Assembly (NCBI GenBank): GCA_002753505.1
Contig: PEAG01000006.1
Coordinates: forward strand, 1-64,000
DNA: 64,000 nt
From: Magnetococcales bacterium HCHbin5
GTDB lineage: Bacteria; Pseudomonadota; Magnetococcia; Magnetococcales; Magnetaquicoccaceae
Direction of reading: 5' to 3'
The position numbers and the translations under genes were made by a program. The first letter of the stretch is position 1, and the number at the start of each line of letters is the position of its first letter. Below, in pieces: positions 3,364 to 21,198 of this stretch. Under the pieces are notes generated by a model. It was not told the DNA's origin and did no database searches. It worked only from the letters and a program-made list of their open reading frames with translations.

Positions 3364-5670
3364 TCAGTCAGGAGCCGCAAGCCGGTAAAAAGTGGTTGGC
3401 TTTGGTCCCTGGCTCAACTGGACTTCCACCAGGATGGAGCCACTTTCCAAAAGATCGGCAATGACCTCCTCTCGTTCGCGCCGAGGGATGGAACGAGTCT
3501 GAAGGCATAGGCTGCTCTTGCTGAACCCCTTCGGCCCTGCGCTGCGGATAAGCTCCAGAATGCGCTTGTGGTTTTGCTCGACCATGTTGTCGGCCACATG
3601 CTGCTCCACCTCCTTGATGAGGGTGGCAACGCTGTGACGAACCAGACCAATGCCCCAGCAGGCATCCACGTCGCGGATTACCGGATTGTCGGGATTGGCG
3701 GCCACAGCCCGGATCATGGCCACCTTGGCGGCATGCTCCCACACCCGCGCCAGGATGGGAGAATAGGCCGAACCCTTGTGCTGGCGTAGCTGCTCGGTCA
3801 CCTGTAGACTCAAGTCGTCGAACAGGGCAACAGCCTCCTGCGCCATGGGAACGACCGAGGGGGTGATGGCGGTGGTGCCGTCTTTGGTGAGCCCCATCAG
3901 GTTGCCTGCCCCTTTGCCACCGCTCTTGGAGAGATATTCAAGGGCTGAAATCAGGCTGGACGGCAGTTCCCGCGACCCAATACGTTGGTTGCGTTCGGGA
4001 TAGTCCTCCAGGGTACGGAGGATCAGAAAACGGGCCAGCGAGCCGTCGGCCACGTTGGCACTCTTCAAGGCCGACCAAAAAACCACTGGCGTGGTGGTGC
4101 CGTAGACGCAAAGACATGGCTGGTTGATATCCTGCCGCTCTATACCGGCATACTCCGCGCCCAGGTAGATCGTCCCGGCAGCGGAGTGGATCTCCGTCAT
4201 CAGATCCAGGATCTCGGTGATGTAACGGGGAAACCTCTTGCGGTCGGCAGCGGCCTGGAGAAACATGCCGAATTCGTCGAGTTGGAAAAGGCTGCCTGCC
4301 TTGCGATGGATGGCCCGCAGCAACCCGGCACCAGAGGCTATGCGATTGCCGCCCAGGTGCTCATGCAGACTGGCGGCATGGAACACCTGGTTGATTATCT
4401 CCCGGCTGTGGTTTTTGCCAGAACCGCTCTCGGCGATACCCACAACGTAGAGGTTGGTGCGCAGGTTGGTTTCGCTGCGGAAGCGATGCGCCATCACGGC
4501 ACCCAACGCGCTGAGCGCGTTGCCGACCGCCAGCAATGGCTGGGGCTGGATGGCGGTTGAGAGCATGAACTCCAACAGCTCTTTCAGCACCCCCTCCACG
4601 TCGGTTGGATCGAAGTCACTGCTGCCTGCCAGGATGGGTGCCGTTTGGGCGACTGGGGGGGATGCCTGTGCCTGCTGCACCTTGCGCAGCAACCCTTCCG
4701 CCGGATGTGGACCTGGATGGTGGTTGGCCGGGTTCAATACCAGGGAAGCGTCTGGCTTCCAGCCGTTGCGCTGAGCCAGATGGTAGAGAGTCCCCGCACC
4801 GATGCTGGTGGGGTGAAAACTCTCCCAGGCACGGGCGGTGGTTTCGGCAACGTTTTTGGAGGACGATGCCGACCAGTCAGCGAACAGGTATTCGCCTGCA
4901 TCTCCCAAGGCACCCTTGATGGCCATGCCGATGCGTACCCAGTCGTCGTAGGGCAGCTCGGCATTGACGATGTAGCGCAGGGCATCGGCCACTGCCTCTG
5001 GTGTGCCGGCCTGTTCAGTGCCGGGATGGTACGTACCGGTTACCACCGGACGCACCGGAAGGTCGGCATGGCTCTGTTCGAGTCGAACAGGCCGCATACC
5101 CTCTGGCAAGAGTGCCAATGCCGCATCGATGAAGGCCCGCGCCTGCTCCTCGCTGATGGCAGGAAGATCCGCCAGGGTCAGGTCGGACAGGGACTTGACC
5201 GGCCACTCGTAAGGCCGACCGGTGCCGGGATGAATGGCATAGGCCACGAACTGCTGCCCCTGGCAGAGTACCTCCAGAGGATGCGCTTTGATGCCTTTGA
5301 AGGGGGTCACCGTCCGGTAGACCAGCACCCGCTTGGGATGCTGCCCGATACGCACGGCCTGCGTCTCCCCCAGCATCTGAAACGCCAGCGCATGGAGACG
5401 ATCTGCCAACTCGACATCACCGGTGATATCGATGTCCACGGCGGCCACCATCCCGCCGGGAATACCAATACCCGCACCCGGCCATTGCTTCCAGATGGCC
5501 AGTTCATGCACCGTGGTAGCGCGGGTGGCGTGTTTGGTCCACCCCTTGTACGGGAACCATTTACCCTGTTCGAAGCGGCCTGGAAACTTTTCTCCCGGCA
5601 TGATGGGCAGGAAGGAAAATCCGCCAGCGGCCAGCTTGTCTCCATGAGTGATCATAAAGTTTTCGTTCAT
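3364..5670 (-). CDS. Primase-polymerase/helicase fusion (Prim-Pol, PriCT-2, DUF3987-like)
   Basis: 768 residues. The N-terminal 190 residues are a bifunctional primase/polymerase domain: the active-site acidic strand is VAAVDIDITGD near residue 74 and the downstream His-bearing strand is HPKRVLVYRT. Residues about 225-300 fit PriCT-2 (ALRYIVNAELPYDDWVRIG, ending with an aromatic TARAWESF). From about residue 360 there is a DUF3987-like ATPase with Walker A VGIAESGSGKN near 410 and a Walker B-like FQLDEFGMFL near 462. The C-terminus is probably a winged helix. This is the replicative primase-helicase of the element, which would synthesise primers and unwind DNA at its origin. Two genes upstream in the same direction lies a second helicase. 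Confidence 0.82.
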   Translation of the reverse strand: MNENFMITHGDKLAAGGFSFLPIMPGEKFPGRFEQGKWFPYKGWTKHATRATTVHELAIWKQWPGAGIGIPGGMVAAVDIDITGDVELADRLHALAFQMLGETQAVRIGQHPKRVLVYRTVTPFKGIKAHPLEVLCQGQQFVAYAIHPGTGRPYEWPVKSLSDLTLADLPAISEEQARAFIDAALALLPEGMRPVRLEQSHADLPVRPVVTGTYHPGTEQAGTPEAVADALRYIVNAELPYDDWVRIGMAIKGALGDAGEYLFADWSASSSKNVAETTARAWESFHPTSIGAGTLYHLAQRNGWKPDASLVLNPANHHPGPHPAEGLLRKVQQAQASPPVAQTAPILAGSSDFDPTDVEGVLKELLEFMLSTAIQPQPLLAVGNALSALGAVMAHRFRSETNLRTNLYVVGIAESGSGKNHSREIINQVFHAASLHEHLGGNRIASGAGLLRAIHRKAGSLFQLDEFGMFLQAAADRKRFPRYITEILDLMTEIHSAAGTIYLGAEYAGIERQDINQPCLCVYGTTTPVVFWSALKSANVADGSLARFLILRTLEDYPERNQRIGSRELPSSLISALEYLSKSGGKGAGNLMGLTKDGTTAITPSVVPMAQEAVALFDDLSLQVTEQLRQHKGSAYSPILARVWEHAAKVAMIRAVAANPDNPVIRDVDACWGIGLVRHSVATLIKEVEQHVADNMVEQNHKRILELIRSAGPKGFSKSSLCLQTRSIPRREREEVIADLLESGSILVEVQLSQGPKPTTFYRLAAPD

Positions 5671-5689
5671 TTTTTACCTTTTTCGTTTC

Positions 5690-6166
5690 TCAAAACGGGA
5701 CATCATCCCAGGTATTGTTGACATCAAACGTGGCTTTGGCCTCCAGGTAGGTGGAGACGATCACCTGGATCAGGGTCGTAAACTCCTCCACCGTGAAGAG
5801 AGCCATATCTGTTTTGCCGAGGCTCTCGATGTATTCACCTGCCCTCGGCCCGGCGGCCCGCATGGCCGCCAGTTCGCGTTCCGTTGGATCAACCATCAGT
5901 CGTGCTCCTGTTCGTCTGGCTCGTAATTTCTCGCCCGGCAGTGCCCGGAAGGTGCCGCCCATTAGGATCAGCACCAAAGTGGCATCGCAGTTGAGAATCT
6001 GTCTGAATACTCGTTGCTCCTTGCCCGGCACCTCCTCCAGATCGGCCGTGCGGCATGGCGTCCCGGCTGGGAGAACCAAAAATCCCTGACCGGGGTTGTG
6101 CCAAGTGGTGGCAACGGAAGTCTCCATGGGGTTACCCACGGATTGCCCCTCTGTCGAATTTGGCAT
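5690..6166 (-). CDS. DUF6511-like hypothetical protein
   Basis: 158 residues starting at ATG 6166, with GGAGGTGG upstream. The C-terminal half (DPTERELAAMRAAGPRAGEY, then ESLGKTDMALFTVEEF and a final TTLIQVIVSTYLEA) matches the pattern I associate with DUF6511, a small family in phages and mobile elements of Alphaproteobacteria. The N-terminal half is not recognised and lacks the Cys-rich part some members have. The gene overlaps the 3' end of the helicase gene by 35 bp and precedes the primase by 20 bp, so it is part of the replication operon. Function unknown. Confidence 0.55.
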   Translation of the reverse strand: MPNSTEGQSVGNPMETSVATTWHNPGQGFLVLPAGTPCRTADLEEVPGKEQRVFRQILNCDATLVLILMGGTFRALPGEKLRARRTGARLMVDPTERELAAMRAAGPRAGEYIESLGKTDMALFTVEEFTTLIQVIVSTYLEAKATFDVNNTWDDVPF

Positions 6167-7727
6167 CCACCACCTCCACCCATTGCCCCGAGTTGCGGAC
6201 GGCGATGCTGGAAGGAACTTTCAGGGCATGGATCTGCTCCATGGCCTGCTCAACCGTATCCGGCACCGGCATGCCGAGACTGGCGCGACGTGTCCACCAC
6301 CGCTCTGCTCTTTTGCGGGCAAAACCGTCATGCTCGAAGCAGACCCACTCCCGGTATTGAAGCAACCCGGACTGGTACTCCACCCGCATGGAAAGGGGCT
6401 TGCCGGGTTTTTCGTGGAAGTGGTAAGAGATCTCATGCACCGGCACCCACTCTGGCTTGCCTGTGGTCAAAATCTCCTGGGTGGTGGCCGTCGGATCCAA
6501 TTTGATTTCCGGCGGCGGAAATGCGTAATTGCATTGGATGCAAAATTTTTCTGCCGCAGGGTTGATGGTGTTACAGTTGGGACACACCTTGATGGGAGCC
6601 CCACCACCCCCTTCTGCCGGTGCCTTCTTGGGCTGAACCCTGTCGATGGGGCCATGTCGCGCCACGTTGCCCGCAAAGTCCAACACCAGGCAGTCGCTCT
6701 TGTTCGGAGCCAGCCGCATGCCCCGACCGGCAATCTGGACGTAAAGGCCGGTGGACTTGGTGGGGCGCAGCATGGCGATCAGGTCCACCTGTGGGGCGTT
6801 GAAGCCGGTGGTCAGGACGTTCATGGCCGACAAAGCCCGGATCTCGCCCCGCTTGAAGGCGGCAATAATCTGGTCGCGCTCCTCCTTCGGGGTATCGCCA
6901 AAGATGCAGGCACAGGAGATACCCCGCTCCTGCACCGCATCCCGCACATGACTGGCATGTGAGACACCGGAGCAGAAGATCAACCAGGAACGGCGATCCT
7001 GGCCAAAGGCGAGGATCTCGTTCACGGCCGCCTGGGTGACCGGGTCCAGATCCACCGCCGCTTCCAGTTGGCCGGGGATGAACTCCCCGCCTCGGGAGCC
7101 GACGCCGGTGACATCCAACTGGGTGTCGGTGAGTTTGCTGATGAGAGGGCACAGAAACCCCTGTTCCACCAGATCCCGCACCGGCATCTCAAAAGCGATG
7201 TCATCGAAGAGAGCGTCCTTGCCCTCGTGCAGCAGGCCGCTGTCCAACCGGTATGGGGTGGCTGTCAGCCCGATAATCTTCATGTACGGGTTGATGCGCT
7301 TCAGATCCTCCAGAAAACGCTGGTACATGGTGTCGGACTTGCGGGGAATTAAATGCGCTTCATCGACCAGCACCAGATCCGCTCTCTGGATGTCATAGGC
7401 CCGCTTATGAACCGACTGGATGCCGCAAAAGAGCACCTGCGCATCCGTATCCCGCTGGTTCATGCCTGCGCTGTAGATGCCCGCCGGAGCCTCCGGCCAG
7501 AGGTTGATCAGCTCGGCAAAATTCTGGCTGATCAGCTCCCGGACGTGGGTCACCACCAGGATACGGGTGTCGGGATAGAGTTGGATCGCCTCCTTGATGA
7601 AGGTTGCCATAACGAAAGATTTTCCTGAAGCGGTTGGAAGAATAACCAAAGGATTTCCGGTATTTTGCTCAAAATACCGATACAGGGCATCGATGGCATC
7701 ACGTTGATAAACTCGCAAAGTCAGCAT
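6132..7727 (-). CDS. Phage DEAD/DEAH-box superfamily 2 helicase
   Basis: 531 residues. The ATG at 7727 is preceded by GGAGGTG and overlaps the stop of the nuclease gene by 7 bp. Motifs are in SF2 order: Walker A ILPTASGKSFVMA near residue 31, motif Ia VVTHVRELI, DEAH (VLVDEAHLIP) near 115, GLTATPYR near 150, a C-terminal helicase domain with TTGFNAPQVD near 300 and QIAGRGMRLAP near 330. Residues about 370-405 hold a CPNC...CIQC zinc ribbon. This is the COG1061/SSL2-like helicase found in phage replication modules, usually beside a PD-(D/E)XK nuclease as here. It would remodel DNA during replication or recombination. Confidence 0.88.
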   Translation of the reverse strand: MLTLRVYQRDAIDALYRYFEQNTGNPLVILPTASGKSFVMATFIKEAIQLYPDTRILVVTHVRELISQNFAELINLWPEAPAGIYSAGMNQRDTDAQVLFCGIQSVHKRAYDIQRADLVLVDEAHLIPRKSDTMYQRFLEDLKRINPYMKIIGLTATPYRLDSGLLHEGKDALFDDIAFEMPVRDLVEQGFLCPLISKLTDTQLDVTGVGSRGGEFIPGQLEAAVDLDPVTQAAVNEILAFGQDRRSWLIFCSGVSHASHVRDAVQERGISCACIFGDTPKEERDQIIAAFKRGEIRALSAMNVLTTGFNAPQVDLIAMLRPTKSTGLYVQIAGRGMRLAPNKSDCLVLDFAGNVARHGPIDRVQPKKAPAEGGGGAPIKVCPNCNTINPAAEKFCIQCNYAFPPPEIKLDPTATTQEILTTGKPEWVPVHEISYHFHEKPGKPLSMRVEYQSGLLQYREWVCFEHDGFARKRAERWWTRRASLGMPVPDTVEQAMEQIHALKVPSSIAVRNSGQWVEVVDAKFDRGAIRG

Positions 7728-8659
7728 GTCACACCTCCATCCCGCCACTGGCTCCCGTCGCGCAAGCGGTACTCCACCCATCCCCCGTTGGTGTCGGCAT
7801 CCACCTGCTCGCCAGGAACCAAATCGGGGATATAGAGATGCGCTGTGCAGCCCGCTTTTTGCTCGCCGATGCTCATCACTCTCTCAACAGGCCCACACAA
7901 CCAAAAACCCGCATCGGTGGGAGTGGCGTGGAGACAGGTGCGGCAATTGCGCTCTGCCCAGGATGACTCATGGCAGAGGGAGTGATGACTGCACATGCGG
8001 CACTGGTACCAGTCAGGATCGCTACTGATCCGCACCGGGGGATACGCCGCGTGGATGATCCGTCCCGCCTTGGCCAGCAGTTTCAACGCCTCTGCTTCGT
8101 CGGCATGTACCCGTTCGGAATAGACGTCATCAGTGTCCTTGTTGACCGCCAAGTACAACGCCCTGGTCATGCCGGTCAGGTGCATGTAGATCTGCATCTG
8201 GGCAAAATGCTGGGGCTTGGATTTTTGCACCCCCTCCTTGCGCAGTTCAGCGAAGGATGCTGCGTTGTGGGTTTTGAACTCACAGACGTGCCAGGTCTTG
8301 GGAGCCTCAATCACACCAATAGCGGCGGCATCCAGGCTGCCGCCGAAGTGGCCGCCGCAGGCCTGAACCCGCCATTGGCGACCGGTCTGGGGATCAACAT
8401 CCAGCACGGTGACACCGATGCGGCGCAGGTTGCGAATGAGCCGGATCTCTTCCTGTTGGCCGGTCTCGAACAGGCGCAACATGCGCCCGCCGAACCGGGA
8501 ACGAACCGCCCACCGAAAGTCGAGCCAAAGGGCACGCTCGCACTCTTTGCCGATGAGAGATGCCCCAAGGTGGGGACGGAATCCGTCCCCATTGTCCGAC
8601 TCATAGGCAGCAAAAATGGCATCAACCGTGGGAGGGTTGGGATTGGGAAGGAGTGCCAT
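7721..8659 (-). CDS. PD-(D/E)XK nuclease with cysteine cluster (Cas4/exonuclease-like)
   Basis: 312 residues from ATG 8659, which overlaps the preceding stop (TGATG). The nuclease core is visible as GGSLDAAAIGVI (acidic residue) followed by WHVCEFKTHN (the E-x-K pair), then a QMQIYMHLTGM helix typical of the family. Residues about 210-260 contain a cluster of cysteines (CRMCSHHSLC, then CRTCLH), which suits an iron-sulfur or zinc site as in Cas4 and AddB-type nucleases. Directly upstream of the helicase gene with overlapping ends, it probably works with that helicase in end resection or recombination of the element. No cas genes or CRISPR array are nearby. Confidence 0.78.
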   Translation of the reverse strand: MALLPNPNPPTVDAIFAAYESDNGDGFRPHLGASLIGKECERALWLDFRWAVRSRFGGRMLRLFETGQQEEIRLIRNLRRIGVTVLDVDPQTGRQWRVQACGGHFGGSLDAAAIGVIEAPKTWHVCEFKTHNAASFAELRKEGVQKSKPQHFAQMQIYMHLTGMTRALYLAVNKDTDDVYSERVHADEAEALKLLAKAGRIIHAAYPPVRISSDPDWYQCRMCSHHSLCHESSWAERNCRTCLHATPTDAGFWLCGPVERVMSIGEQKAGCTAHLYIPDLVPGEQVDADTNGGWVEYRLRDGSQWRDGGVTC

Positions 8660-9039
8660 CACGCACCCCCTTGCTGGAGCAGGCGATACGCCTCGTCCAG
8701 CACCCCGCGCCATTCAGTCTCGTCATAATCACGGCGCACGATGGCGATGATGGTATCTTTCAGTCTGGCCTTGTTCGCCGACGCACAGTGCCGAATATGC
8801 TCCTGGAGATGGGCCAACTCCTCACGCTTGAAACGCAGAGAAGTCCGTGCGCGGCGGAACCAGTCTGTATCGATGCGTCCGCCGTTTGCCTGCCGTTCCA
8901 TGTCGGCGGCGGCCAACTGATCGCGGATAGCGGCAATGTCGAATTGCAGCTTGAGAATGCGGGAACGGCATTCTTCTTGGGTGGAAGGCAAATCGGGCTT
9001 GTCCCGGCCCTCCTGATGGTGCAAGATGGTGGTATCCAT
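8659..9039 (-). CDS. Hypothetical coiled-coil phage protein
   Basis: 126 residues from ATG 9039, with GGAG eleven bases upstream. No family recognised. Residues 20-110 are strongly helical and charged (CRSRILKLQFDIAAIRDQLA, RTSLRFKREELAHLQEHI), consistent with a coiled coil. It lies in the operon between the DUF669 gene and the nuclease gene and shares a TGATG junction with the nuclease, so the two are probably translated together. Confidence 0.6.
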   Translation of the reverse strand: MDTTILHHQEGRDKPDLPSTQEECRSRILKLQFDIAAIRDQLAAADMERQANGGRIDTDWFRRARTSLRFKREELAHLQEHIRHCASANKARLKDTIIAIVRRDYDETEWRGVLDEAYRLLQQGGA

Positions 9040-9129: not shown

Positions 9130-9888
9130 TCAACCCATCCTCCGCCAGGGGCCAACCCCACTGGCAGTGGTTGGAGGCGTTTGGGCAGCAGGCTGCTGCA
9201 CTGGTTGCGGCTGAGCCTGATACTGTGTCGGCTGCGGCTGTTGCACCTGCTGGGGTGCTTGGTGCTGCTGTACCTGCTGTTGCGGTGCCGCTTGGGACTG
9301 TGCCTGATACTGCACCGGTTGGGGTTGCGGTGCCGCTTGGGACTGTGCCTGATACTGCACCGGTTGGGGTTGCGGTGCCGCCTGGGGCTGATACTGTGCT
9401 GGTTGCGGCTGTGGCTGCGGTGCCGGTTGGGGCTGTGTCTGATACTGTGCCGCGTGCCGTGGCGGTGGCGGCTGATAGGCCTGCTGAGAAACCTGGCCAG
9501 CATTGGCGGCCGCCTTGTAACCCTTCACTGTGTTGTACCCCTCTTTGTCCACCACCACCTTCACAACCAACGGCCGGAAGTGGAGTTCCTCCGAGTCGCT
9601 CACCTGCATCCGCCCCACGGCGTGGCAGATGGCCGACAGAGTGCGCTGAGCAATCTCCTCTGCCTGCCGGTTTGGGTTGATCAGGTTGAGCCGGTCAAAC
9701 AGCTTTTTGCCAACCATGGCCCCGTCCAGTACCTCCATTTCCATGAAGAGATACTGACCGGTTCCAGCCTTGGTCGCCCTCATTTCGCTGGTGATGATCT
9801 GCACCCGATATTCACCAGGAGGCAGGGTCTCATGTGGTTGGTTGGGGTCCACCTGGGTGGCATCGAAAGTTCCGCCGAGTTGTGCCAT
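9130..9888 (-). CDS. DUF669 phage protein with Gln/Pro-rich tail
   Basis: 252 residues. The ATG at 9888 is preceded by AGGAG. The N-terminal 130 residues are a DUF669 domain: QVDPNQPHETLPPGEYRVQI, KAGTGQYLFMEMEVLDG, KKLFDRLNLINPN and VKVVVDKEGYNTVKGY. DUF669 proteins lie beside Sak4-type ATPases in many phages and are thought to act as single-stranded-DNA-binding partners. The C-terminal 110 residues are low complexity, made of Q/P/A/Y repeats such as QPQPVQYQAQSQAAP, which resembles the flexible tail of SSB-like proteins though without an obvious acidic tip. The gene lies 11 bp downstream of the Sak4-like gene. Confidence 0.8.
   Translation of the reverse strand: MAQLGGTFDATQVDPNQPHETLPPGEYRVQIITSEMRATKAGTGQYLFMEMEVLDGAMVGKKLFDRLNLINPNRQAEEIAQRTLSAICHAVGRMQVSDSEELHFRPLVVKVVVDKEGYNTVKGYKAAANAGQVSQQAYQPPPPRHAAQYQTQPQPAPQPQPQPAQYQPQAAPQPQPVQYQAQSQAAPQPQPVQYQAQSQAAPQQQVQQHQAPQQVQQPQPTQYQAQPQPVQQPAAQTPPTTASGVGPWRRMG
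9281..9370 (-). repeat. Two exact tandem 45-bp repeats inside the DUF669 gene
   Basis: Copies at 9281-9325 and 9326-9370 are identical and are followed by a diverged partial third copy. Each encodes the 15-residue unit QPQPVQYQAQSQAAP in the disordered tail. The exact identity suggests a recent slippage or recombination duplication, and the unit number may vary between strains. Confidence 0.85.
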
Positions 9889-9899
9889 TGTAGTGCTCC

Positions 9900-10667
9900 T
9901 TATGCGCTGACAGTGTTGGTTGGTATGGTTCCAGCGAGATACGCTTCGAGTGTTGGCCACTCCATGGGCAGCTCACCGGGCAGGTTGTAACGGTTTTTGG
10001 CCAAAAAGGCCGGACGCTCAGTGGTGAAGATCAACCGGGTGCAATCACCCACTGCGCGGGTCACCTTTTTGTTGAAGCCAACGTCAGTTTTCGTGGTACT
10101 CACCCGGTAGTTGCAAAACAGAACACAATCGCTGTGTTCCACCAGCAGGGCCGCCGCTTTCTGATGCAGCTTGATGTCATACCGGTCGTATGGCTCATGC
10201 TCCGGGGAGTCAAACCGCCGCACAACGGCATGGGCGATCTGGATGACCAGCATCCCCTTCTCGGTACGCAAGCGGTTCAACCGGCCGATGTATTCGCGCC
10301 ACAGATCGATGGCAAACATGTAACCCTTGCCATAATTCAATTCCTCCATGGAATTGACCTTTTGGCGCAGACAGACCTCTGCCCAGATCAGTGGCTCCAG
10401 CCAGTCGAGACTGTCGATGACGAAGCTTTCGAAGGCGTGTTGCTCATTGAGCAGGGCATCCATGGCACCCAGGACGTCGGCAAAGGATTTGGCCTGGGGG
10501 AAAGAGATGACATCCAGCTTGCCCAACCCATCCTCCGTGGGCACAAAGACTGCTGCGGGAGCGCAAGATGCCAACGTGGTTTTGCCAACACCAGCCCCGC
10601 CATAGAGCAGGATGCGCGGGGGCAGGTTGATCTGACGGCGTTGCAGTGAGCCGAGAGAAATGGCCAT
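9900..10667 (-). CDS. Sak4-like RecA-fold ATPase (phage single-strand annealing)
   Basis: 255 residues from ATG 10667. It begins with a short leader and PRILLYGGAGVGKTTLAS, a Walker A near residue 20. A Walker B-like strand FVIDSLDWLEPLIW is near residue 80, and VIQIAHAVVRRF near 145 fits the sensor strand of phage nucleotide-binding proteins of the Sak4/TIGR01618 group. Length agrees with that family (about 230-260). Sak4 proteins are RecA-like single-strand annealing recombinases that work with an SSB; the DUF669 gene immediately downstream is the usual partner. The start overlaps the stop of a 19-codon leader ORF (TAATG). Confidence 0.82.
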   Translation of the reverse strand: MAISLGSLQRRQINLPPRILLYGGAGVGKTTLASCAPAAVFVPTEDGLGKLDVISFPQAKSFADVLGAMDALLNEQHAFESFVIDSLDWLEPLIWAEVCLRQKVNSMEELNYGKGYMFAIDLWREYIGRLNRLRTEKGMLVIQIAHAVVRRFDSPEHEPYDRYDIKLHQKAAALLVEHSDCVLFCNYRVSTTKTDVGFNKKVTRAVGDCTRLIFTTERPAFLAKNRYNLPGELPMEWPTLEAYLAGTIPTNTVSA

Positions 10668-10726
10668 TACACGCCTCCTTGGCCGTTGGGCCGGGTTGAA
10701 AGGTTGTTCACTGTTTTTTTCGGCAT
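10667..10726 (-). CDS. 19-residue leader peptide ORF
   Basis: ATG at 10726 follows GAGGAG with suitable spacing and encodes MPKKTVNNLSTRPNGQGGV, ending in TAA that overlaps the ATG of the Sak4-like gene (TAATG). The peptide is basic at its start and has no recognisable domain. The good ribosome site and coupled junction suggest it is translated and may serve to couple or tune translation of the ATPase. It could also be a chance short frame. Confidence 0.4.
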   Translation of the reverse strand: MPKKTVNNLSTRPNGQGGV

Positions 10727-10752
10727 TGTTCGTCTCCTCAAAGTTGATTGGG

Positions 10753-11046
10753 TTATGCTGCCAGATGGGCAGAACATTTACTGACCGGCACTAAGTGCCG
10801 GAGGTACTTCTCTTCGATGCGCTGTGCTGCCTGTTCAGGATCCACGCTCATCAAACTGCAGATAAAGCAAAAACTCCCCGGTGCCATCGAACGATCCCGA
10901 AAAAAACGTTTGAGATCCCTGACATCAGACCGGAACAGATGATTGCTCCACAATTCCGGCTCCTTCTGAACCTTCTTCAGCAGCCTCGCAGTGTCTCTAA
11001 CAGCCTGGGCGAGAACGGCGATCCACAATTCTTTTTCCGGTTCCAT
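10753..11046 (-). CDS. Small phage protein, paralogue of the next gene upstream
   Basis: 97 residues. It shares a clear pattern with the neighbouring gene at 11059-11409: EKELW-[IV]-AVL near the start, a central FF...SM-x-PG-x-F-x-FIC block, and DP-x-QA-x-x-RI with a closing YL-x-x-LVP-like motif. The two are tandem duplicates in the same direction, separated by 12 bp. No known family was recognised. The FIC-L-DP-QA section is probably a helix-turn-helix-like bundle, but this is a guess. Stop at 10753-10755. Confidence 0.62.
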   Translation of the reverse strand: MEPEKELWIAVLAQAVRDTARLLKKVQKEPELWSNHLFRSDVRDLKRFFRDRSMAPGSFCFICSLMSVDPEQAAQRIEEKYLRHLVPVSKCSAHLAA

Positions 11047-11413: not shown

Positions 11414-11599
11414 CTATTGATTGAACCTGTGGTAATTGTTTGCCTCGTAGTGCTCGATATCTGCTTGGCTGTACAAAATGCGGCCACCTATCTTCAGAAA
11501 GGGTGGCCCCTTGCGCATCCCCCTCCAGTTCTGCAGCGTCTTGGTTGCAATCCCCCAGCGACGAGCAAGCTGACTTGTGTTGATGAGTTCGTTCCCCAT
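11414..11599 (-). CDS. AlpA/excisionase-type helix-turn-helix protein
   Basis: 61 residues from ATG 11599, preceded by CGGAGG. The sequence LINTSQLARRWGIATKTLQN, followed by WRGMRKGPPFLKIGGRILYS and QADIEHYE, is a textbook MerR-like winged HTH of the AlpA/Xis type (HTH_17). Such proteins act as excisionases or as activators of early genes in prophages and integrative elements. It is the first gene of the minus-strand module and lies directly beside the iteron-like array, making it the best local candidate to bind that array. Confidence 0.82.
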   Translation of the reverse strand: MGNELINTSQLARRWGIATKTLQNWRGMRKGPPFLKIGGRILYSQADIEHYEANNYHRFNQ

Positions 11600-11650
11600 A
11601 TTTTCCTCCGTGATGCTGCTGAACTTGGGGAGCATGATACGGCAGTCGAG

Positions 11651-12014
11651 GTTAGGCAGAAGTTAGGCAGAAGTTAGGCAGGAGGTTAGAAATGAATTTG
11701 CCTCAAAAATTTTTCCAACACGCATCAGAGATCAACTAGTTGATTTATATGCGTTTAGCTAAAACAGACAGGTTCATGCCCATTTCTGGTAATGGTTAGG
11801 CAGAAGTTAGGCAGAGGTTAGGCAGAGGTTAGGCGGTGGTGGAGACATTAGGCAGGAATAGTGTGATGCCAAGCAGAAAGTGGCCGAAAAAGTGCGCAGA
11901 AAATGGCTCTCTGTCGAGCGATTCCTTGCTGGATAAGGTTAGGCAGAGAATAGGCATGGGTTAGGCAGACTGGCGATACCGGTCTACCACACAGCGGTTG
12001 ATGGTTAGGCAGAG
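11651..12014 (+). repeat. Iteron-like array of 11-bp GTTAGGCAGAN repeats
   Basis: The core GTTAGGCAG recurs in phased groups: 11651, 11662 and 11673 (exactly 11 bp apart), then 11795, 11806, 11817 and 11828 (again 11 bp apart, the last as GTTAGGCGG), a variant ATTAGGCAGG at 11847, then 11938, a variant AATAGGCAT at 11949, 11960, and a lone copy at 12004. All are in one orientation. An 11-bp period puts the sites on the same face of the helix, as in replication iterons or cooperative operator arrays. The array fills the otherwise gene-free gap between the recA terminator and the early-module HTH gene. The stretch 11690-11795 between groups is AT-rich. Confidence 0.8.
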
Positions 12015-12144: not shown

Positions 12145-13293
12145 CTACGGCAAGTCATCGGTTTCGAAATTCTCGCTCTCCATCCCACGATCGACACTTG
12201 GTCGCTTGCTGGCACCCTTACTACTGCCCTTGCCCAATTTGGCTACGGGTGTGGTATAAGAAATCGATGGTGTACCGTCGGCAGTTGCACGGTTTTTAGG
12301 AGGCAGTCCGACGTGATTGCGGAGTTGGTCCTCCAACTCAATGAGCATAGCCGGATTGTCCACGAGGAATTTTTTGGCATTCTCCCGGCCCTGGCCGATT
12401 CTTTCTGTCCCCCTGGAAAACCAGGCACCTGATTTTTCCACCAGATTGGCTTCGACGGCCAAGTCCAGCACTTCTCCGGCCAACGAAATGCCGGTTCCGT
12501 AGTCGATGTCGAACTCAGCACTGCGGAAAGGGGGGGCCATTTTGTTTTTGACTACTTTGACTTTGGTGCGGTTGCCGACTATCTCTTCTTTCTCCTTCAG
12601 CGGACCGATGCGGCGAATGTCCATTCGGATGGATGCGTAAAACTTGAGGGCGTTTCCACCGGTAGTGGTTTCCGGGTTGCCATACGCATTGCCAATTTTC
12701 ATGCGAATTTGGTTGATAAACAGCACAATAGCGTTGGAGCGAGAGATGGAACCGGTCAGTTTGCGCAACGCATGAGACATAAGCCGGGCATGCAGGCCGA
12801 CATGCGCGTCTCCCATATCTCCTTCAATTTCTGCTTTGGGAGTCAAAGCTGCCACCGAGTCGACCACCACCAAATCGACAGCTCCAGAACGAACCAGCAT
12901 ATCAACAATTTCCAGAGCCTGTTCACCGGTATCTGGTTGGGAAATGAGTAACTGATCCACGTCCACGCCCAAATGACGGGCATAGGTGGGATCTATGGCG
13001 TGTTCGGCGTCTACGAAGGCGGATATTCCGCCAAGTCTCTGGGCCTCGGCGGCCATGTGCAATGCCAATGTGGTTTTTCCAGAGGACTCCGGTCCAAAGA
13101 TTTCCACAATCCGCCCTCGTGGCAGGCCACCGATACCCAGTGCCGTGTCAACCCCCAGGGATCCGGTGGAAATGACGGGAACCGACTGGACCGTGTCCAG
13201 CGACATCCGCATGATGGAACCCTTTCCACATTGCTTTTCAATTTGTGCAATCGCGGCCTCCAGTGCTTTGGCTTTGTTGCTATCCAGTGACAT
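12145..13293 (-). CDS. recA: RecA recombinase (possibly an accessory copy)
   Basis: 382 residues from ATG 13293, with TAGGAG upstream. RecA forms the nucleoprotein filament for homologous recombination and triggers LexA/UmuD self-cleavage. Visible: [27 protein letters not shown] (Walker A near residue 66), [30 protein letters not shown] (Walker B and loop L1), and loop L2 ([20 protein letters not shown]). Some positions differ from the usual consensus ([34 protein letters not shown]), and the 60-residue C-terminal tail is long and basic rather than strongly acidic until its last residues. Lying next to lexA-umuD-umuC in an accessory region, it may be a second copy; that cannot be settled from this window. 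No GAAC-N4-GTTC box is seen upstream. Confidence 0.95.
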
Positions 13294-13408: not shown

Positions 13409-14353
13409 TCAAACCTTAAGCCAGCAGAAACCTCCACTGTACTCAATCAACTCCTTCCAATCAGGATGGTGGTTGAATACTTGAGACAAAGATTTTGATT
13501 TTGAATCAATCTTCTCAAGTATCTCACGAGTATGGCGTTTTGGATTACCCAACCTCCATGCCTGATGCAATTCTTTGATGACGTCGCGCTGCTTACCACC
13601 GGCAAACACGAATACCCTGCCGTGGACTCTGATCGAGCTATAGTCAAGACTGGGATGAACTGGTCCATGATCGGCATACGGACTCGCACTCTTCAGGTTA
13701 CCATGGAGCAATTCCAAATCGAGCACATACCCACTATTCGTCTCCACAACCAGACGATCCAGATCAAGAATCCGGTGCCCACTGGGCAATTCGGCATGCC
13801 TCTTCCCGGGCACCTTATTGCTCAACACAAGCCCTGGCGATTTGCCCGTCCAGTCCAGAAAGGCGTCATACACACTTTCAAACATGTCCTCTCGGGCAAG
13901 ATCCTTGGCCAGGAATATTGCCGCCCGCTGGTGCCCAGCACGAATGTATCCCAACTCCCACAAGCAATCAGGTATGATGACGCGAACCTGGACCGTTGAT
14001 TCAATCTCAATCAGATCACGAAGATGCTTCGCCATCCAGTCCAGATTAATGTTATAAGTTTTCATGTCCTCATCTGGGACATCAATGTCCTCAATACCGG
14101 TATCAGTCAGACAGGTATATTGGTAAGTGCGCGTTTCCGGATTCCATTCCGCATCCCTCCATTCGGTTGGATCATCGCTCTCCCGATTCGGCACCATCGT
14201 GGTAATCGGCCCATCGGTCAAGTAGCCGGCAGCATACAGAGCTTTGATCTCCTCGGCGCGATTGGTCATCATACTGTTGTACACATTCTTTTTTGGAAAA
14301 CCAAACAGCATCAATGCCGTTGTGAATGCCTTGTGTGTCAACTGGCCGCTCAT
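13409..14353 (-). CDS. Unrecognised protein, second gene of an unknown two-gene operon
   Basis: 314 residues from ATG 14353, with GGAGG upstream inside the end of the preceding gene. No family recognised. The N-terminus (FGFPKKNVYNSMMTNRAEEI, then LYAAGYLTDGP) looks like a small helical, possibly winged-helix, domain. The C-terminal half holds LDLDRLVVETNSGYVLDLEL and IRVHGRVFVFAGGKQRDVI, a strand-rich pattern with acidic residues that could be nuclease-like, but no catalytic motif is certain. No signal peptide or membrane segment. The gene follows the 387-residue gene by one base and shares its transcript. It is AT-richer than the metabolic genes to the right, which fits acquisition by transfer. 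Confidence 0.6.
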   Translation of the reverse strand: MSGQLTHKAFTTALMLFGFPKKNVYNSMMTNRAEEIKALYAAGYLTDGPITTMVPNRESDDPTEWRDAEWNPETRTYQYTCLTDTGIEDIDVPDEDMKTYNINLDWMAKHLRDLIEIESTVQVRVIIPDCLWELGYIRAGHQRAAIFLAKDLAREDMFESVYDAFLDWTGKSPGLVLSNKVPGKRHAELPSGHRILDLDRLVVETNSGYVLDLELLHGNLKSASPYADHGPVHPSLDYSSIRVHGRVFVFAGGKQRDVIKELHQAWRLGNPKRHTREILEKIDSKSKSLSQVFNHHPDWKELIEYSGGFCWLKV

Positions 14354-14354
14354 G

Positions 14355-15518
14355 CTACGCCTCCTTCACCAAGCCCCAAAGTGGTAAATATTTCTCGCAG
14401 ACCAACCGTTCCCTTCTGGTTCTTCCCTTCAGGTCGCATCCATTGGGAAGACTGAGCGACACCCTGATAATCTGGCCCCTGCGGTTTTCCTGGTTGGAAC
14501 GGAACCGAATCGCCAGATCTGCTTGAACCACCTCTACCCCTTCCCGGCTGAGAACTCGTTGCTCCGGTCCTTTGGAAAATTCATAAAGACTGGTCTCTGC
14601 GTCCTGTTTCTGTCCCAGAATGAACCACACCCCGGGATAGTCTGACATATGCCCCTTCACGGAAAGCACCAAAACCGAAGCTATACCGTCCCCGATGTCT
14701 GTTGGAAATGTGCGTTGCGCGACCAGCGAAGATAAATCGTATTGGCGAAGCGGAACACGCAGTCCAATCATCCTCTGGCCCAACATTATCTCGGAAAACA
14801 TCCGATACAACCGTGGCCTGTTCTTGGAGTCCAAACCGGCAACCTCTATGACACCGCTCATCGGATCGTAGGTCAGAACGGCTTCCAGAACAGGACGCCT
14901 CGATTGCATTTCCAGCGTACCGTTCTCAAATACCCAAACCCCATCCGGCAATCCTTCACGGTAGATGACCACCTGGGTCATCAATGGCGCAGACTGGTTG
15001 GAACTTACCTGCTGCCTCTGGTACACCTCCACCTGTGCGTTCATTGTGCGGAACATCTCGCAAATCCGCGTCACAAATTCCCGACGGCAATCTTCACCGT
15101 CATGTACTGTCGCCCCCTTTGGGCCAATAAAACTGGCCCATCTCCGCCCCAGCCGGTTTCTTTCCGCAAAACGCACCTCTTCAGCTCGCCGAAAAGCTTT
15201 CTCGTCATGCAGATACAACCACATGGCCCGATCATGGCCATTGAAAAGAGACTGAAGAATCTTGGGATCCTGTATAACACCTGCGATTGAACCCTGTCCG
15301 GCCTCGTCAGTCATCCCTTGTATGCGTTCAAAATCCAAGACAATGGCTGCATAATCATCACGATTGACATTCTCCACTGCCTTGATCAATCGTTGGGCTG
15401 TCGGCGGCCTATCATCCTGCCAGTTGACTGTTCCACCCAAATCAATGCGGCGGGCATCAAAATATGTGCGCAGGGTGGAAACAGGCGTTTTTCGTATCAC
15501 GGTAGCAACAGTCATCAT
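14355..15518 (-). CDS. Unrecognised protein, first gene of an unknown two-gene operon
   Basis: 387 residues from ATG 15518 (or 15515). No family recognised. Regions of note: DYAAIVLDFERIQGMTDEAG (an acidic strand near residue 56), a basic AERNRLGRRWASFIGPKG segment, and FENGTLEMQSRRPVLEAVLTYDPMSGVIEV near the centre, which looks like a beta-rich domain. Upstream is an AT-rich 100-bp stretch next to the umuC stop that would hold its promoter. With the tightly coupled gene at 13409 it forms a self-contained pair between recA and umuC in an accessory region, a typical setting for defence or toxin-type modules, but no function can be stated. Confidence 0.6.
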   Translation of the reverse strand: MMTVATVIRKTPVSTLRTYFDARRIDLGGTVNWQDDRPPTAQRLIKAVENVNRDDYAAIVLDFERIQGMTDEAGQGSIAGVIQDPKILQSLFNGHDRAMWLYLHDEKAFRRAEEVRFAERNRLGRRWASFIGPKGATVHDGEDCRREFVTRICEMFRTMNAQVEVYQRQQVSSNQSAPLMTQVVIYREGLPDGVWVFENGTLEMQSRRPVLEAVLTYDPMSGVIEVAGLDSKNRPRLYRMFSEIMLGQRMIGLRVPLRQYDLSSLVAQRTFPTDIGDGIASVLVLSVKGHMSDYPGVWFILGQKQDAETSLYEFSKGPEQRVLSREGVEVVQADLAIRFRSNQENRRGQIIRVSLSLPNGCDLKGRTRRERLVCEKYLPLWGLVKEA

Positions 15519-15619: not shown

Positions 15620-15934
15620 TCAACAAGCAATAACTGTCGGAATTTCTCCCCAACGGGTCGTGTAACGTGGAGAGCGATTGGCGGATTTTATGGCCCAACG
15701 CCGACGCACCCCCTCACCAGCCATGTGAATGATTTCAGAGCCGAACCGTTGCCGTATGACATCAAGTGTGGCCATCAAAGCGGTACTTTTACCTTCTGCC
15801 AATGAATCGGCAAACAGATCACCCTGTCTGCTGGTCGAATTCTCCAACTCCATCAACAATACCCCCGCCTTGTGGTAAGCGTAGCCGGGTTTGTAGATCG
15901 TGGACAACCCTTGCACAGCAATGCGCGCGAGCCG
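15620..15934 (-). pseudogene. umuC: umuC 3' half, separated by tandem IS insertion
   Basis: Encodes the C-terminal part of a DNA polymerase V catalytic subunit: GLSTIYKPGYAYHKAGVLLM, RQGDLFAD, LDVIRQRFG and SPRYTTRWGEIP, which match the UmuC little-finger/C-terminal region. It joins in frame to the 5' half at 19176-20160 once the insertions and one copy of GCCG are removed: ...DELR followed by LARIAVQGL. The rebuilt gene is 432 codons including stop, close to the usual 422-residue UmuC. As it stands the half gene is probably not expressed as a functional protein. Confidence 0.88.
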
Positions 15935-16168
15935 TGTGTTGGTTCAGCGGAATTTGGAGTTCTTGGCAGTTTCCGTTAGCAACAAACTGCCCCGACCATC
16001 ACGGGGACTCTGTCCCCGTACCCCTGGGATTTTTCGCTTTACAGGCCAAAGCAGGGTAGAAAAGCAGGACTGAAAAGCTGGTTGCTATCCAGTCCCTGCT
16101 TCGGCCCCTGATCGGTGCTCAGGTCGCGTCCCCGCATTCCCCTATCCCCCGTCAGGCTGGAACACAGT

Positions 16169-17137
16169 CTAATCGGATTGTTCATGATGTTCCAGGGCTT
16201 TTTCGTTTCCACCCGCAGACGCGCCTTGTATCCTGTTTGCCCGTGCTGCTTCCAACTTCTGCTTTCTGGTCGCATGAACCTCTGTATGTCTACCTGCAAG
16301 GCGATCCGCCGGTGTCACGTATCCAATGGATGAATGCAAGCGAACTGTATTGTAATGCTCAACATATTTCCCAACTATCCGCTGCGCATCTGCCAACGAC
16401 AGAGGCGTTTCGGGACGAATGCACTCAGCCTTGATCGTCTTGTGCCATCGTTCGATCTTCCCGTTGCTCTGCGGATAGTACGGTGAAGTTCTTACATGGG
16501 TCATGCCAGAAATCCTGATGAACTCCTTGAAATCCCTGGCAATAAACTGCGGACCATTGTCAGAGATGATGCGCGGCTGCTCATCAGGGAATTTCTCATG
16601 CGCTCGCTGGATGATTATTTCCACGTCCTGTTCCGTCATGGCTTCCCGGATTTCCCAGTGCACCATGTACCGGCTGCACCCATCCAAAACACCGCATAAA
16701 TAGTAGAACGTCCCATTTATATTGATATATGAGACATCCGTGTGCCAATGTTCGTGCGGTTGGAGGGGTTGCACAAAGCCAGTCCCTTTCTTGTTCGGTT
16801 CAACATTGCGTCGGCCGATCAAGCCGGCCTTTTTCAGTACCCGGTAGACGCTGGATGGGCTGACCGCGACTATGTCTTCATCGAGCATCATGAACGCGAT
16901 GCGCCGATATCCCTCCAGTCGGTTTAGAGTGTAATATTCAATGATTGCAGTACGTTCCCAATCCTTTACCCAAAAGTCTCTGGGCACCCGTCCATTATGC
17001 TCATTGGCACGACCATACCGTTGACGCCAGTTGTAAAAGGTGCTCTCCGGCAACCCTATCCACCTGTACAAAGCTGTTGCCGGCAATTGCGCCCGATCAG
17101 ACCAATACACAACATAATCAACAACTTGATCTCGCAT
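16169..17137 (-). CDS. IS3-family transposase OrfB (copy 1)
   Basis: 322 residues with an rve-type DDE integrase core: HTDVSYININGTFYYL (first Asp near residue 135), IISDNGPQFIARDFKEF (second Asp), and SPYYPQSNGKIERWHKTIK (Glu in the NGKIERWH motif). The N-terminal part (LPESTFYNWRQRYG, YRRIAFMMLDE, SSVYRVLKKAGL) is the usual HTH_21 region. It is probably made as an OrfAB fusion by -1 slippage on a run of eight A residues (T8 on the plus strand at 17178-17185) near the orfA end; the shifted frame runs open into this ORF. Confidence 0.93.
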   Translation of the reverse strand: MRDQVVDYVVYWSDRAQLPATALYRWIGLPESTFYNWRQRYGRANEHNGRVPRDFWVKDWERTAIIEYYTLNRLEGYRRIAFMMLDEDIVAVSPSSVYRVLKKAGLIGRRNVEPNKKGTGFVQPLQPHEHWHTDVSYININGTFYYLCGVLDGCSRYMVHWEIREAMTEQDVEIIIQRAHEKFPDEQPRIISDNGPQFIARDFKEFIRISGMTHVRTSPYYPQSNGKIERWHKTIKAECIRPETPLSLADAQRIVGKYVEHYNTVRLHSSIGYVTPADRLAGRHTEVHATRKQKLEAARANRIQGASAGGNEKALEHHEQSD

Positions 17138-17160
17138 GCCATGGGCAACCCATGTGCCAG

Positions 17161-17499
17161 TCAGCGATCCCCAAGTCTTTTTTTTAGGGCAACGTACTCC
17201 TGCATCAATTCTGAGATCACCTCATTTTTGGCAGTCAATTGCCGTTCCAATTCGGCAATCCGGCGGTCACGGGACTCCACCTCACGCTTCGTTCCTGATG
17301 TGCCTTTGAAAGCCAACGACCCGTTTTCAAAAAACTCCTTCTGCCATCTGTAAAACATGGACGGTTGCATGTGGTGCTGGTCACACAAATCTGATACGGG
17401 TGTCTTTTCCAGCAGGTGCATTCTCAAAACCGCCACCTTGTCCTCGGCTGCATAATTCTTCCGGGTTTTAATCGCCATCGCGTCCTCCTCGTCAGTCAT
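17161..17499 (-). CDS. IS3-family transposase OrfA (copy 1)
   Basis: 112 residues. An N-terminal HTH ([36 protein letters not shown]) binds the terminal repeats in this family, followed by a coiled-coil region ([20 protein letters not shown]) for multimerisation. Near its end the mRNA has CTAAAAAAAAG, a slippery run for programmed -1 frameshifting into orfB. The sequence upstream of ATG 17475 (MAIKTRKNY) suggests an alternative start eight codons in. Confidence 0.9.
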   Translation of the reverse strand: MTDEEDAMAIKTRKNYAAEDKVAVLRMHLLEKTPVSDLCDQHHMQPSMFYRWQKEFFENGSLAFKGTSGTKREVESRDRRIAELERQLTAKNEVISELMQEYVALKKRLGDR

Positions 17500-17789
17500 C
17501 GTCGTAGAGCTAACGCAAGTGTATCAAAACTCCATGTCCAATTGAAGCAACACAGTGTGTTGGTTCAGCGGAATTTGGAGTTCTTGGCAGTTTCCGTTAG
17601 CAACAAACTGCCCCGACCATCACGGGGACTCTGTCCCCGTACCCCTGGGATTTTTCGCTTTACAGGCCAAAGCAGGGTAGAAAAGCAGGACTGAAAAGCT
17701 GGTTGCTATCCAGTCCCTGCTTCGGCCCCTGATCGGTGCTCAGGTCGCGTCCCCGCATTCCCCTATCCCCCGTCAGGCTGGAACACAGT

Positions 17790-18758
17790 CTAATCGGATT
17801 GTTCATGATGTTCCAGGGCTTTTTCGTTTCCACCCGCAGACGCGCCTTGTATCCTGTTTGCCCGTGCTGCTTCCAACTTCTGCTTTCTGGTCGCATGAAC
17901 CTCTGTATGTCTACCTGCAAGGCGATCCGCCGGTGTCACGTATCCAATGGATGAATGCAAGCGAACTGTATTGTAATGCTCAACATATTTCCCAACTATC
18001 CGCTGCGCATCTGCCAACGACAGAGGCGTTTCGGGACGAATGCACTCAGCCTTGATCGTCTTGTGCCATCGTTCGATCTTCCCGTTGCTCTGCGGATAGT
18101 ACGGTGAAGTTCTTACATGGGTCATGCCAGAAATCCTGATGAACTCCTTGAAATCCCTGGCAATAAACTGCGGACCATTGTCAGAGATGATGCGCGGCTG
18201 CTCATCAGGGAATTTCTCATGCGCTCGCTGGATGATTATTTCCACGTCCTGTTCCGTCATGGCTTCCCGGATTTCCCAGTGCACCATGTACCGGCTGCAC
18301 CCATCCAAAACACCGCATAAATAGTAGAACGTCCCATTTATATTGATATATGAGACATCCGTGTGCCAATGTTCGTGCGGTTGGAGGGGTTGCACAAAGC
18401 CAGTCCCTTTCTTGTTCGGTTCAACATTGCGTCGGCCGATCAAGCCGGCCTTTTTCAGTACCCGGTAGACGCTGGATGGGCTGACCGCGACTATGTCTTC
18501 ATCGAGCATCATGAACGCGATGCGCCGATATCCCTCCAGTCGGTTTAGAGTGTAATATTCAATGATTGCAGTACGTTCCCAATCCTTTACCCAAAAGTCT
18601 CTGGGCACCCGTCCATTATGCTCATTGGCACGACCATACCGTTGACGCCAGTTGTAAAAGGTGCTCTCCGGCAACCCTATCCACCTGTACAAAGCTGTTG
18701 CCGGCAATTGCGCCCGATCAGACCAATACACAACATAATCAACAACTTGATCTCGCAT
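17790..18758 (-). CDS. IS3-family transposase OrfB (copy 2)
   Basis: Same 322-residue product as the copy at 16169-17137, with the DDE residues in HTDVSYIN, SDNGPQF and NGKIERWH. The frameshift run lies at 18799-18806. No difference from copy 1 was noticed, which points to very recent duplication. Confidence 0.93.
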   Translation of the reverse strand: MRDQVVDYVVYWSDRAQLPATALYRWIGLPESTFYNWRQRYGRANEHNGRVPRDFWVKDWERTAIIEYYTLNRLEGYRRIAFMMLDEDIVAVSPSSVYRVLKKAGLIGRRNVEPNKKGTGFVQPLQPHEHWHTDVSYININGTFYYLCGVLDGCSRYMVHWEIREAMTEQDVEIIIQRAHEKFPDEQPRIISDNGPQFIARDFKEFIRISGMTHVRTSPYYPQSNGKIERWHKTIKAECIRPETPLSLADAQRIVGKYVEHYNTVRLHSSIGYVTPADRLAGRHTEVHATRKQKLEAARANRIQGASAGGNEKALEHHEQSD

Positions 18759-18781
18759 GCCATGGGCAACCCATGTGCCAG

Positions 18782-19120
18782 TCAGCGATCCCCAAGTCTT
18801 TTTTTTAGGGCAACGTACTCCTGCATCAATTCTGAGATCACCTCATTTTTGGCAGTCAATTGCCGTTCCAATTCGGCAATCCGGCGGTCACGGGACTCCA
18901 CCTCACGCTTCGTTCCTGATGTGCCTTTGAAAGCCAACGACCCGTTTTCAAAAAACTCCTTCTGCCATCTGTAAAACATGGACGGTTGCATGTGGTGCTG
19001 GTCACACAAATCTGATACGGGTGTCTTTTCCAGCAGGTGCATTCTCAAAACCGCCACCTTGTCCTCGGCTGCATAATTCTTCCGGGTTTTAATCGCCATC
19101 GCGTCCTCCTCGTCAGTCAT
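18782..19120 (-). CDS. IS3-family transposase OrfA (copy 2)
   Basis: Same 112-residue HTH and leucine-zipper protein as copy 1. Being the outermost copy, any transcription entering from umuC would read into it in the sense direction. Confidence 0.9.
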
Positions 19121-19175
19121 CGTCGTAGAGCTAACGCAAGTGTATCAAAACTCCATGTCCAATTGAAGCAACACA

Positions 19176-20160
19176 GCCGTAACTCATCGGAGGTGGAGTT
19201 CAGTACCGGCATCGTCACTCCTTGACGATACTGCGGGTCACGCTCCCTGAACGGATTGGTCTGGATAAAAACATGGATCGCACCAGTGACCAAACCTCGC
19301 CCCCTCATTCTCCGCACACCTCGACGCAAAAAGGTCAACACCGCTTCGGCCAGTTCATCCTGTTCATACACCGGCTGTCCGAAGGATCGCGATGATTGGA
19401 TCTGTTGACGGGACGGCGCAACCATTTCTAACGATAAACAGGAGACACCATTCAACTCCTCAACGGTGCGCGCCATTACCACTGAAAAACGCTTCCTCAA
19501 CTGACCTGCATCTGCCCGGCGCAACAAAAGCACATTTGTGATCCCCATGGCACGCAGCTTTTCCGCTCCCCGAGGCCCAACTCCCCAAACCTCTGCCACA
19601 TCAATCTCCGCCATCAGCCTTTCCAAATCTTCGCCTGCCATGATGTTGAAGTTGCATACCCCAGCGTAAGCAGGACGTTTTTTGGCAACGTGGTTGGCCA
19701 GTTTGGCCAGGGTCTTAGAGGGGCCAATGCCCACCCCGACTGGCAACCCTAACCAATTGGCAATCCTCAACCGCATAGCATGCCCAATGGATGTCACATC
19801 GTGTTGGTTACCCAGATCAAGAAAGCATTCGTCGATGGAATAAACCTCTTGACTGGGACTAAAATCCCCCAACAGGGTCATCATCCTCTGCGACATGTCG
19901 GCATAAAGAGCATAGTTGCTGGATAACGCTACAATCCCGTGTTGTTGCGCCAAGTCGCGCAGACGAAACCATGGCTCACCCATCTTTACCCCCAACGCCT
20001 TGACCTCGTTGGAACGGGCCACAGCACAGCCATCATTGTTGGAGAGCACCACAACAGGTCTGTCCCGCAACCACGGATTAAACACCCGCTCGCACGACAC
20101 ATAAAAATTGTTGCCGTCTATCAACGCGATATTCCGTTTGGCACCCGATGCACAGACCAT
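19176..20160 (-). pseudogene. umuC: umuC 5' half, polymerase V catalytic core, interrupted by IS pair
   Basis: Y-family polymerase start at ATG 20160 ([10 protein letters not shown]), overlapping the umuD end by 40 bp. Catalytic motifs are intact: [16 protein letters not shown] (first acidic pair), [31 protein letters not shown] (second acidic pair), and a helix-hairpin-helix ([18 protein letters not shown]). The frame continues about 20 codons into the IS (a few aberrant residues after DELR) and stops at 19117. Without the last 100 residues, including the region that binds UmuD' and the beta clamp, translesion synthesis is unlikely. Precise loss of the tandem IS would restore the gene. Confidence 0.9.
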
Positions 20161-21142: not shown

Positions 21143-21186
21143 TGATTCAACCTCGATTGATGATTGACTGTGACTTGCACTATAAG

Positions 21187-21198
21187 GAACGAACGTTC
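21187..21198 (-). promoter_or_regulatory. LexA operator, GAAC-N4-GTTC palindrome
   Basis: GAACGAACGTTC lies 45 bp upstream of the lexA start, an exact match to the GAAC-N4-GTTC SOS box best known from Gram-positive bacteria and used by some proteobacterial groups. It differs from the alphaproteobacterial GTTC-N7-GTTC and the enterobacterial CTG-N10-CAG types. Confidence 0.78.

Follow-up and report, generated by a model that had tools for sequence, protein, structure and literature searches.

A phased 11-bp repeat array is a well-supported operator of a Magnetococcales prophage early promoter, and covariation suggests that an undescribed virus protein reads it

The array of short direct repeats described here is well supported by genome comparison as the operator of a prophage early promoter, and the same comparison suggests that its repeats are read by one undescribed virus protein, referred to as WH. 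We analyzed a 64-kb stretch of DNA (the window) together with its genome and related genomes, and the computations yielded the array, its synteny, its geometry, its spacing from the -10 hexamer, the covariation of repeat and protein, and a natural swap. On this evidence it appears fairly probable that WH is an activator, which would occupy tandem 11-bp sites across the -35 region of the early promoter in head-to-tail fashion.

A preliminary description of this DNA had reported about ten copies of GTTAGGCAG in one orientation, and our results agreed with this count. Nine exact copies start at positions 11651, 11662, 11673, 11795, 11806, 11817, 11938, 11960 and 12004, copies with one mismatch at 11828 and 11847, and degenerate units at 11685 (GTTAGAAAT) and 11949 (AATAGGCAT). 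The array extends from 11651 to 12012 with every unit on the plus strand, and the opposite strand of the 64-kb window contains zero exact copies. Among 2000 dinucleotide-shuffled versions of the 364-nt segment, no 9-mer exceeded 3 copies and phased pairs at a lag of 11 numbered at most 8, compared to 9 and 39, respectively, in the actual sequence. The unit is 9 bp long at an 11-bp period; the exact 11-bp period claimed previously was found inside the clusters, but not at the outermost, degenerate slot of the promoter-proximal cluster, which lies 12 bp away. A scan of the 4.19-Mb genome for the phased pair GTTAGGCAGNNGTTAGGCAG, allowing up to two mismatches, found none elsewhere, and thus the phased motif is confined to the array locus rather than spread at random. 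No RNA families were found in the array region. The functional reading of the array is on the minus strand (CTGCCTAACNN), pointing to the HTH_17 gene, and in the register fixed by the geometry the unit has the form xCCTv1v2v3, in which v1v2v3 is AAC in the window. The features of the array region are as follows.

11634-11639, minus strand: TATCAT, the putative -10 hexamer of the early promoter; its start is 17 bp away from where the slot 4 core begins
11651-11693, minus strand: promoter-proximal cluster of four slots spaced 12-11-11, a geometry common to homologous prophages
11651-11659, 11662-11670 and 11673-11681, minus strand: proximal slots 4, 3 and 2, all CTGCCTAAC
11685-11693, minus strand: proximal slot 1, degenerate (ATTTCTAAC)
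11731-11744, no strand assigned: ATCAACTAGTTGAT, a perfect palindrome of 14 bp within AT-rich DNA between array clusters
11795-11855, minus strand: middle cluster, with units at 11795, 11806, 11817, 11828 (GTTAGGCGG) and 11847 (ATTAGGCAG)
11938-12012, minus strand: distal cluster, with units at 11938, 11949 (degenerate), 11960 and 12004

The LexA-like repressor of the element may use the palindrome as an operator; in relatives, the corresponding AT-rich DNA between clusters has other inverted repeats, perhaps also operators of LexA-like repressors.

Judged by its genes, the host of the array is a temperate-phage or prophage-like element of a Magnetococcales genome. Of the gene set expected of a temperate tailed phage, the window, which begins at a contig end, shows a probable integrase, a repressor and early replication genes; virion genes were not seen in it, and terminase, portal and head genes were found in a relative (G024). 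The genes to which we refer below are as follows.

3364-8713, minus strand: further genes of the early operon, encoding a Cas4-like exonuclease, a DNA helicase, a DUF6511 protein and a primase-polymerase/helicase
9130-11046, minus strand: early operon 3' of the HTH_17 gene, encoding a phrog_7024-like small protein, a Sak4-like ATPase and a DUF669 single-strand binding protein
11414-11599, minus strand: HTH_17 (AlpA/excisionase-like) gene, first of the early operon (PF12728, E=1.3e-7)
12145-13293, minus strand: element-borne recA, between WH and the array both here and in relative G004
13409-14353, minus strand: WH, 314 aa, undescribed, the proposed reader of the repeats
14355-15518, minus strand: p387 gene, the immediate upstream neighbor of WH in most loci extending that far
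20549-21220, minus strand: the element's own LexA/CI-like S24-peptidase repressor
21939-23375, plus strand: large serine recombinase at the right end of the element, with the same order in an IMG/VR relative (L111)

The array had been placed beside an AlpA-like gene and upstream of replication genes, and indeed the HTH_17 gene heads the early replication operon. It had also been placed between recA and a phage-like module. The array does adjoin recA, but this recA is a second, element-borne copy, the chromosomal one being on G000:C1 (two recA genes are likewise present in G004), and the array therefore lies inside the element and not at its edge. The start codon of HTH_17 is likely ATG 11599, which is preceded by GGAGG and was preferred because the alternative ATG 11635 overlaps the -10 hexamer; the protein has a weak PADLOC match to mad1 (E=2.4e-6). 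The large serine recombinase is probably the integrase. No Pfam, NCBIfam or PADLOC match was found for p387, which is a possible partner of WH. UmuD and UmuC are also encoded by the element; its umuC (15620-20175) is split by an IS3-family-like insertion present as two identical copies in direct orientation, with open frames at 16169-17499 and 17790-19120, and an uninterrupted copy of 446 aa is present in G004.

Homologues of HTH_17 were found in 24 of the 48 genomes of the order, many with a phased direct-repeat array upstream, and altogether some 28-30 related prophages carry an array at the same place and with the same geometry but with a different unit sequence, many of the compared genomes being draft assemblies that are broken at these repeats. 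The units of relatives include CTCCTCAGT, CTCCTACCT, TTCCTCACC, CTCCTCCC, GGCCTAAGT and AACTACCCT, all unlike that of the window. In most systems the array lies between the WH stop codon and the HTH_17 gene, and recA is displaced into this interval in the window and in G004. WH itself was detected in 17 of the 48 genomes, in other Pseudomonadota and on four IMG/VR contigs, and the order p387-WH-array-HTH_17 recurs in all three settings; on one of these contigs (L111), integrase, repressor, p387, WH and early genes follow each other as in the window. The named relatives are Magnetococcales, G004 matching Candidatus Magnetaquicoccus inordinatus UR-1. Among 50,697 named phage genomes WH had no match, and a search of viral contigs with HTH_17 confirmed no relative; the nearest relatives of HTH_17 in named phages are in mid-operon, without arrays.

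Several loci at the margin of this distribution were also recorded. On a contig of G003 (L100, G003:C3, 3949-4118), an HTH_17 protein 82% identical to that of the window adjoins a TCACAC-type array, with WH off the contig. At L108 (~6480-6600, G029:C10), GTCCC repeats with a 10-bp period lie upstream of an HTH_17 gene with no WH nearby, and are possibly served by another reader. The pattern search also gave an array-like match in G038 (L010), outside any WH locus. WH-type C-domains occur in shorter proteins at L188, L192 and L194-L196, followed by ATCCC units with an 11-bp period and by a distal ATCCC cluster in the opposite orientation. Finally, profile matches to the WH N-domain within 734-803 aa frames (L181, L182, L184-L187 and L189-L191, in another order) hint that this domain is used more widely, in large proteins of that order.

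The geometry of the promoter-proximal cluster is independent of the unit sequence: the slot spacing is 12-11-11 bp, and a degenerate third slot turns this into 12-23 bp. Of the 21 Magnetococcales systems listed, 20 have a TANNNT hexamer that starts exactly 17 bp past the start of the last unit core, and in 15 of these 20 it is directly preceded by TG; the exception is G003:C3, where TATCAT lies one base further on. A putative -10 hexamer, often extended, is present, while a TTGACA-like -35 box is not evident by eye, and the 17-bp offset implies that the last unit covers the spacer and -35 region. Systems from Alphaproteobacteria keep the slots, and a -10 at that offset is not evident in them. 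A cooperative operator for the early promoter was among the functions proposed previously, and it is favored by the location, geometry and -10 distance that about 28 homologous systems share.

WH consists of an N-domain (residues ~1-221) and a winged-helix-like C-terminal domain (~232-314) that includes a recognition-helix segment at 286-297 (SKSLSQVFNHHP). Searches of Pfam, PHROGs and NCBIfam gave no match worth counting. Because the structure predicted from a single sequence had a pLDDT of only 36.6, a model built from 33 sequences (AF2; mean pLDDT 87.9) was used instead, and its C-terminal domain has a predicted winged-helix-like topology of strands, three helices and a C-terminal hairpin. 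Foldseek searches of PDB and BFVD with this model returned nothing significant, with only weak matches such as BaeR (E=0.4). We also considered WH as a member of Trans_reg_C and found no support for this assignment, as none of the 33 full-length or 18 C-domain sequences matched that Pfam family and hhalign gave a probability of 0.2% against the genome's own Trans_reg_C domains. No BTAD match was found in WH.

WH is proposed as the reader because changes in its DNA-reading helix go along with changes in the repeat sequence, against an otherwise constant background. Across 20 systems, a small and related sample in which partial Mantel tests lessen but do not abolish the effect of kinship, distances between units correlated with distances between recognition helices (residues 286-297; Mantel r=0.34, p=0.0002); no such correlation was seen for the N-domain (r=0.00) or the remainder of the C-domain (r=0.05). 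The correlation with HTH_17 was weaker (r=0.20, p=0.04) and weakened further to p=0.10 once the helix was accounted for, whereas that of the helix with HTH_17 accounted for had p=0.0004. When 303 windows of 12 residues were slid along WH, those of the recognition helix (starts 284-287) took the top four places. In leave-one-out prediction, the helix gave the right variable triplet with a rate of 0.86, which was equaled in 0 of 500 shuffles, compared to 0.56 by chance and to chance-level rates of 0.55, 0.58 and 0.56 for the N-domain, the remaining C-domain and HTH_17, respectively; the triplets were set partly by eye, and an automatic count gave the same triplet in 18 of 20 systems and a tie in 2. 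Residues 288, 291 and 294 were among the top positions in column-wise mutual information, and because unrelated columns gave noise in this measure we preferred the distance-based tests. HTH_17 proteins that are 96-98% identical to each other adjoin CAG-, ACC-, CAC- and CCC-type arrays.

Two close prophages (G012:C5 and G016:C86) show the same association in a single comparison. Their DNA is 92-100% identical until ~35 codons before the WH stop codon, falls to 30-72% identity across the helix and the arrays, and is ~100% identical from HTH_17 onward; the helices read GQLFRGR and SKLFSGR and the arrays CTCCTCAGT and CTCCTACCT, respectively. As far as sequences can tell, this pattern is the trace expected if a reader and its operator had been exchanged as one cassette. 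Rules relating helix to unit were fixed in writing before relatives from another order were retrieved. Five of six new Rhodobacterales-like systems with an FSGR helix had CCTACC as predicted, while the sixth (L175) had CCTTCC (TCC, not ACC); four of the five are closely related to one another, and the result therefore amounts to ~2-3 independent confirmations. A further system (L173), with an FKGH helix, had CCTCCC/CCTCCT as expected, its alignment being read by eye where the script had selected a wrong segment. A simple code may reside in residues 288, 291 and 294 and their neighbors; for example, Gln291 combined with Asn or Arg at 294 would be accompanied by A as the second of the variable bases, and an SGR helix by CCTACC units. 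We would put at about even the chance that WH founds an unrecognized family of phage early-gene activators, in which a few helix residues set the DNA specificity by a simple code and the helix-plus-array cassette recombines. Exchange of such a cassette by recombination would leave close prophages with different specificities.

In the mechanism that we propose, the C-terminal winged-helix domain of WH would bind the array with one subunit per 11-bp unit, all subunits sharing one head-to-tail orientation and almost the same face of the double helix. The last unit, once bound, would cover the -35/spacer region of a promoter without an evident -35 box, and WH would most likely recruit RNA polymerase and turn on the recombination/replication operon led by HTH_17; activation is considered most likely because the site plan resembles that of SARP and PhoB activators and a -35 box is not evident. 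The upstream clusters would be read by WH as well and may strengthen or buffer the response, and recognition helix and repeats would have co-diversified as one exchangeable cassette. Here we infer binding by WH and activation rather than repression, and the roles of the distal clusters and of p387 have the same standing.

The main rival to activation is that WH reads the array but represses, as an immunity or lytic-phase repressor that covers the -35 region. Its sites do overlap the -35/spacer region, and phage immunity typically involves a reader and an operator that diversify together, as lambdoid repressors and operators do between immunity types. However, the element already encodes a LexA/CI-like repressor (20549-21220), and the want of a visible TTGACA-like -35 box together with the frequent TG before the -10 hexamer is reminiscent of activator-dependent promoters. 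Moreover, of 13 pairs of co-resident prophages one shared a type versus 2.3 expected, so that, as a test of heteroimmunity, type-sharing was not significantly avoided (P=0.30). We therefore regard repression by WH as unlikely.

Other functions or binders are weaker candidates. The preliminary description had raised an origin or copy-control site, and an iteron-type replication origin, copy-control or partition site would fit the phased, one-orientation repeats, the AT-rich stretch between clusters and the adjoining replication operon; plasmid R1 parC likewise has 11-bp repeats, on both sides of a promoter. Beyond these resemblances we found nothing in favor of such a site, although the distal clusters might yet serve as an origin or copy-control site, and we judge it improbable, as the tight, conserved -10 spacing is a promoter property, no plasmid-type Rep or Par pair was present beside the array among the genes searched, and one relative has a full set of prophage genes (terminase, portal and head). 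The small HTH_17 protein, the AlpA-like binder suggested at the outset, is encoded directly beside the array, and BldC-like proteins bind 9-bp direct repeats head-to-tail (PMC5859096). It was nevertheless rejected as the repeat binder, given near-identical proteins beside different arrays and prediction of the unit at chance; WH predicts the unit instead. In addition, HTH_17 homologues without WH, at 11 Magnetococcales loci and in 5 named phages, lack such arrays, bar one 10-bp array, and this reading is very improbable. Slippage can create tandem repeats, but a neutral duplication without function is hardly credible, since the geometry is kept despite different unit sequences and bacterial classes and changes in the unit track a single segment of one protein.

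If WH is indeed an activator that reads the array, it represents an undescribed family of phage regulators, with no Pfam, PHROGs or NCBIfam model, whose own operator can be read from sequence and which occurs in prophages of magnetotactic and other proteobacteria. With unit and reading helix as the sole variables within a constant promoter geometry, these prophages would constitute a natural, many-variant experiment in protein-DNA specificity, a winged-helix recognition code on direct repeats would become directly testable, and early promoters of such prophages could be found in unannotated genomes. One would also have to ask why selection favors changes in specificity.

Plasmid iterons are long (~17-22 bp), whereas the unit of this array is only 9 bp at an 11-bp period. 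As in lambdoid immunity, a DNA-reading segment and its operator differ between otherwise similar phages; however, lambdoid operators are palindromes, unlike the asymmetric direct repeats found here, and WH was unrelated to CI/Cro in every family search. The oligomeric winged-helix proteins BldC and RdfS assemble head-to-tail on direct repeats that are separated by one turn of the helix (PMC5859096, PMC11963761), and the element encodes an HTH_17 protein of that broad class, but this protein does not follow the repeat sequence. The winged-helix effector domain of PhoB binds in tandem to the direct repeats of the pho box (PMC3348028); ~11-bp repeats near the -35 region fit this plan and the predicted topology of the WH C-domain is similar to that of OmpR/PhoB proteins, whereas the hhalign probability, the weak Foldseek matches and the lack of a receiver-domain match in WH set it apart. 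Also close in plan are the SARP activators of Streptomyces (AfsR, DnrI type), which recognize direct repeats 11 or 22 bp apart, the 3' repeat being 8 bp from the -10, their protomers lying in tandem, side by side, across the -35/spacer region (PMC10936776). The array has spacings of 11-12 or 23 bp and 9-11 bp from its last unit to the -10; it differs in that WH lacks a Trans_reg_C or BTAD match, resides in proteobacterial prophages and has a hypervariable unit. The C-domain of WH is not detectably in the SARP or PhoB families, and our claim is therefore not one of membership but that WH works as these activators do.
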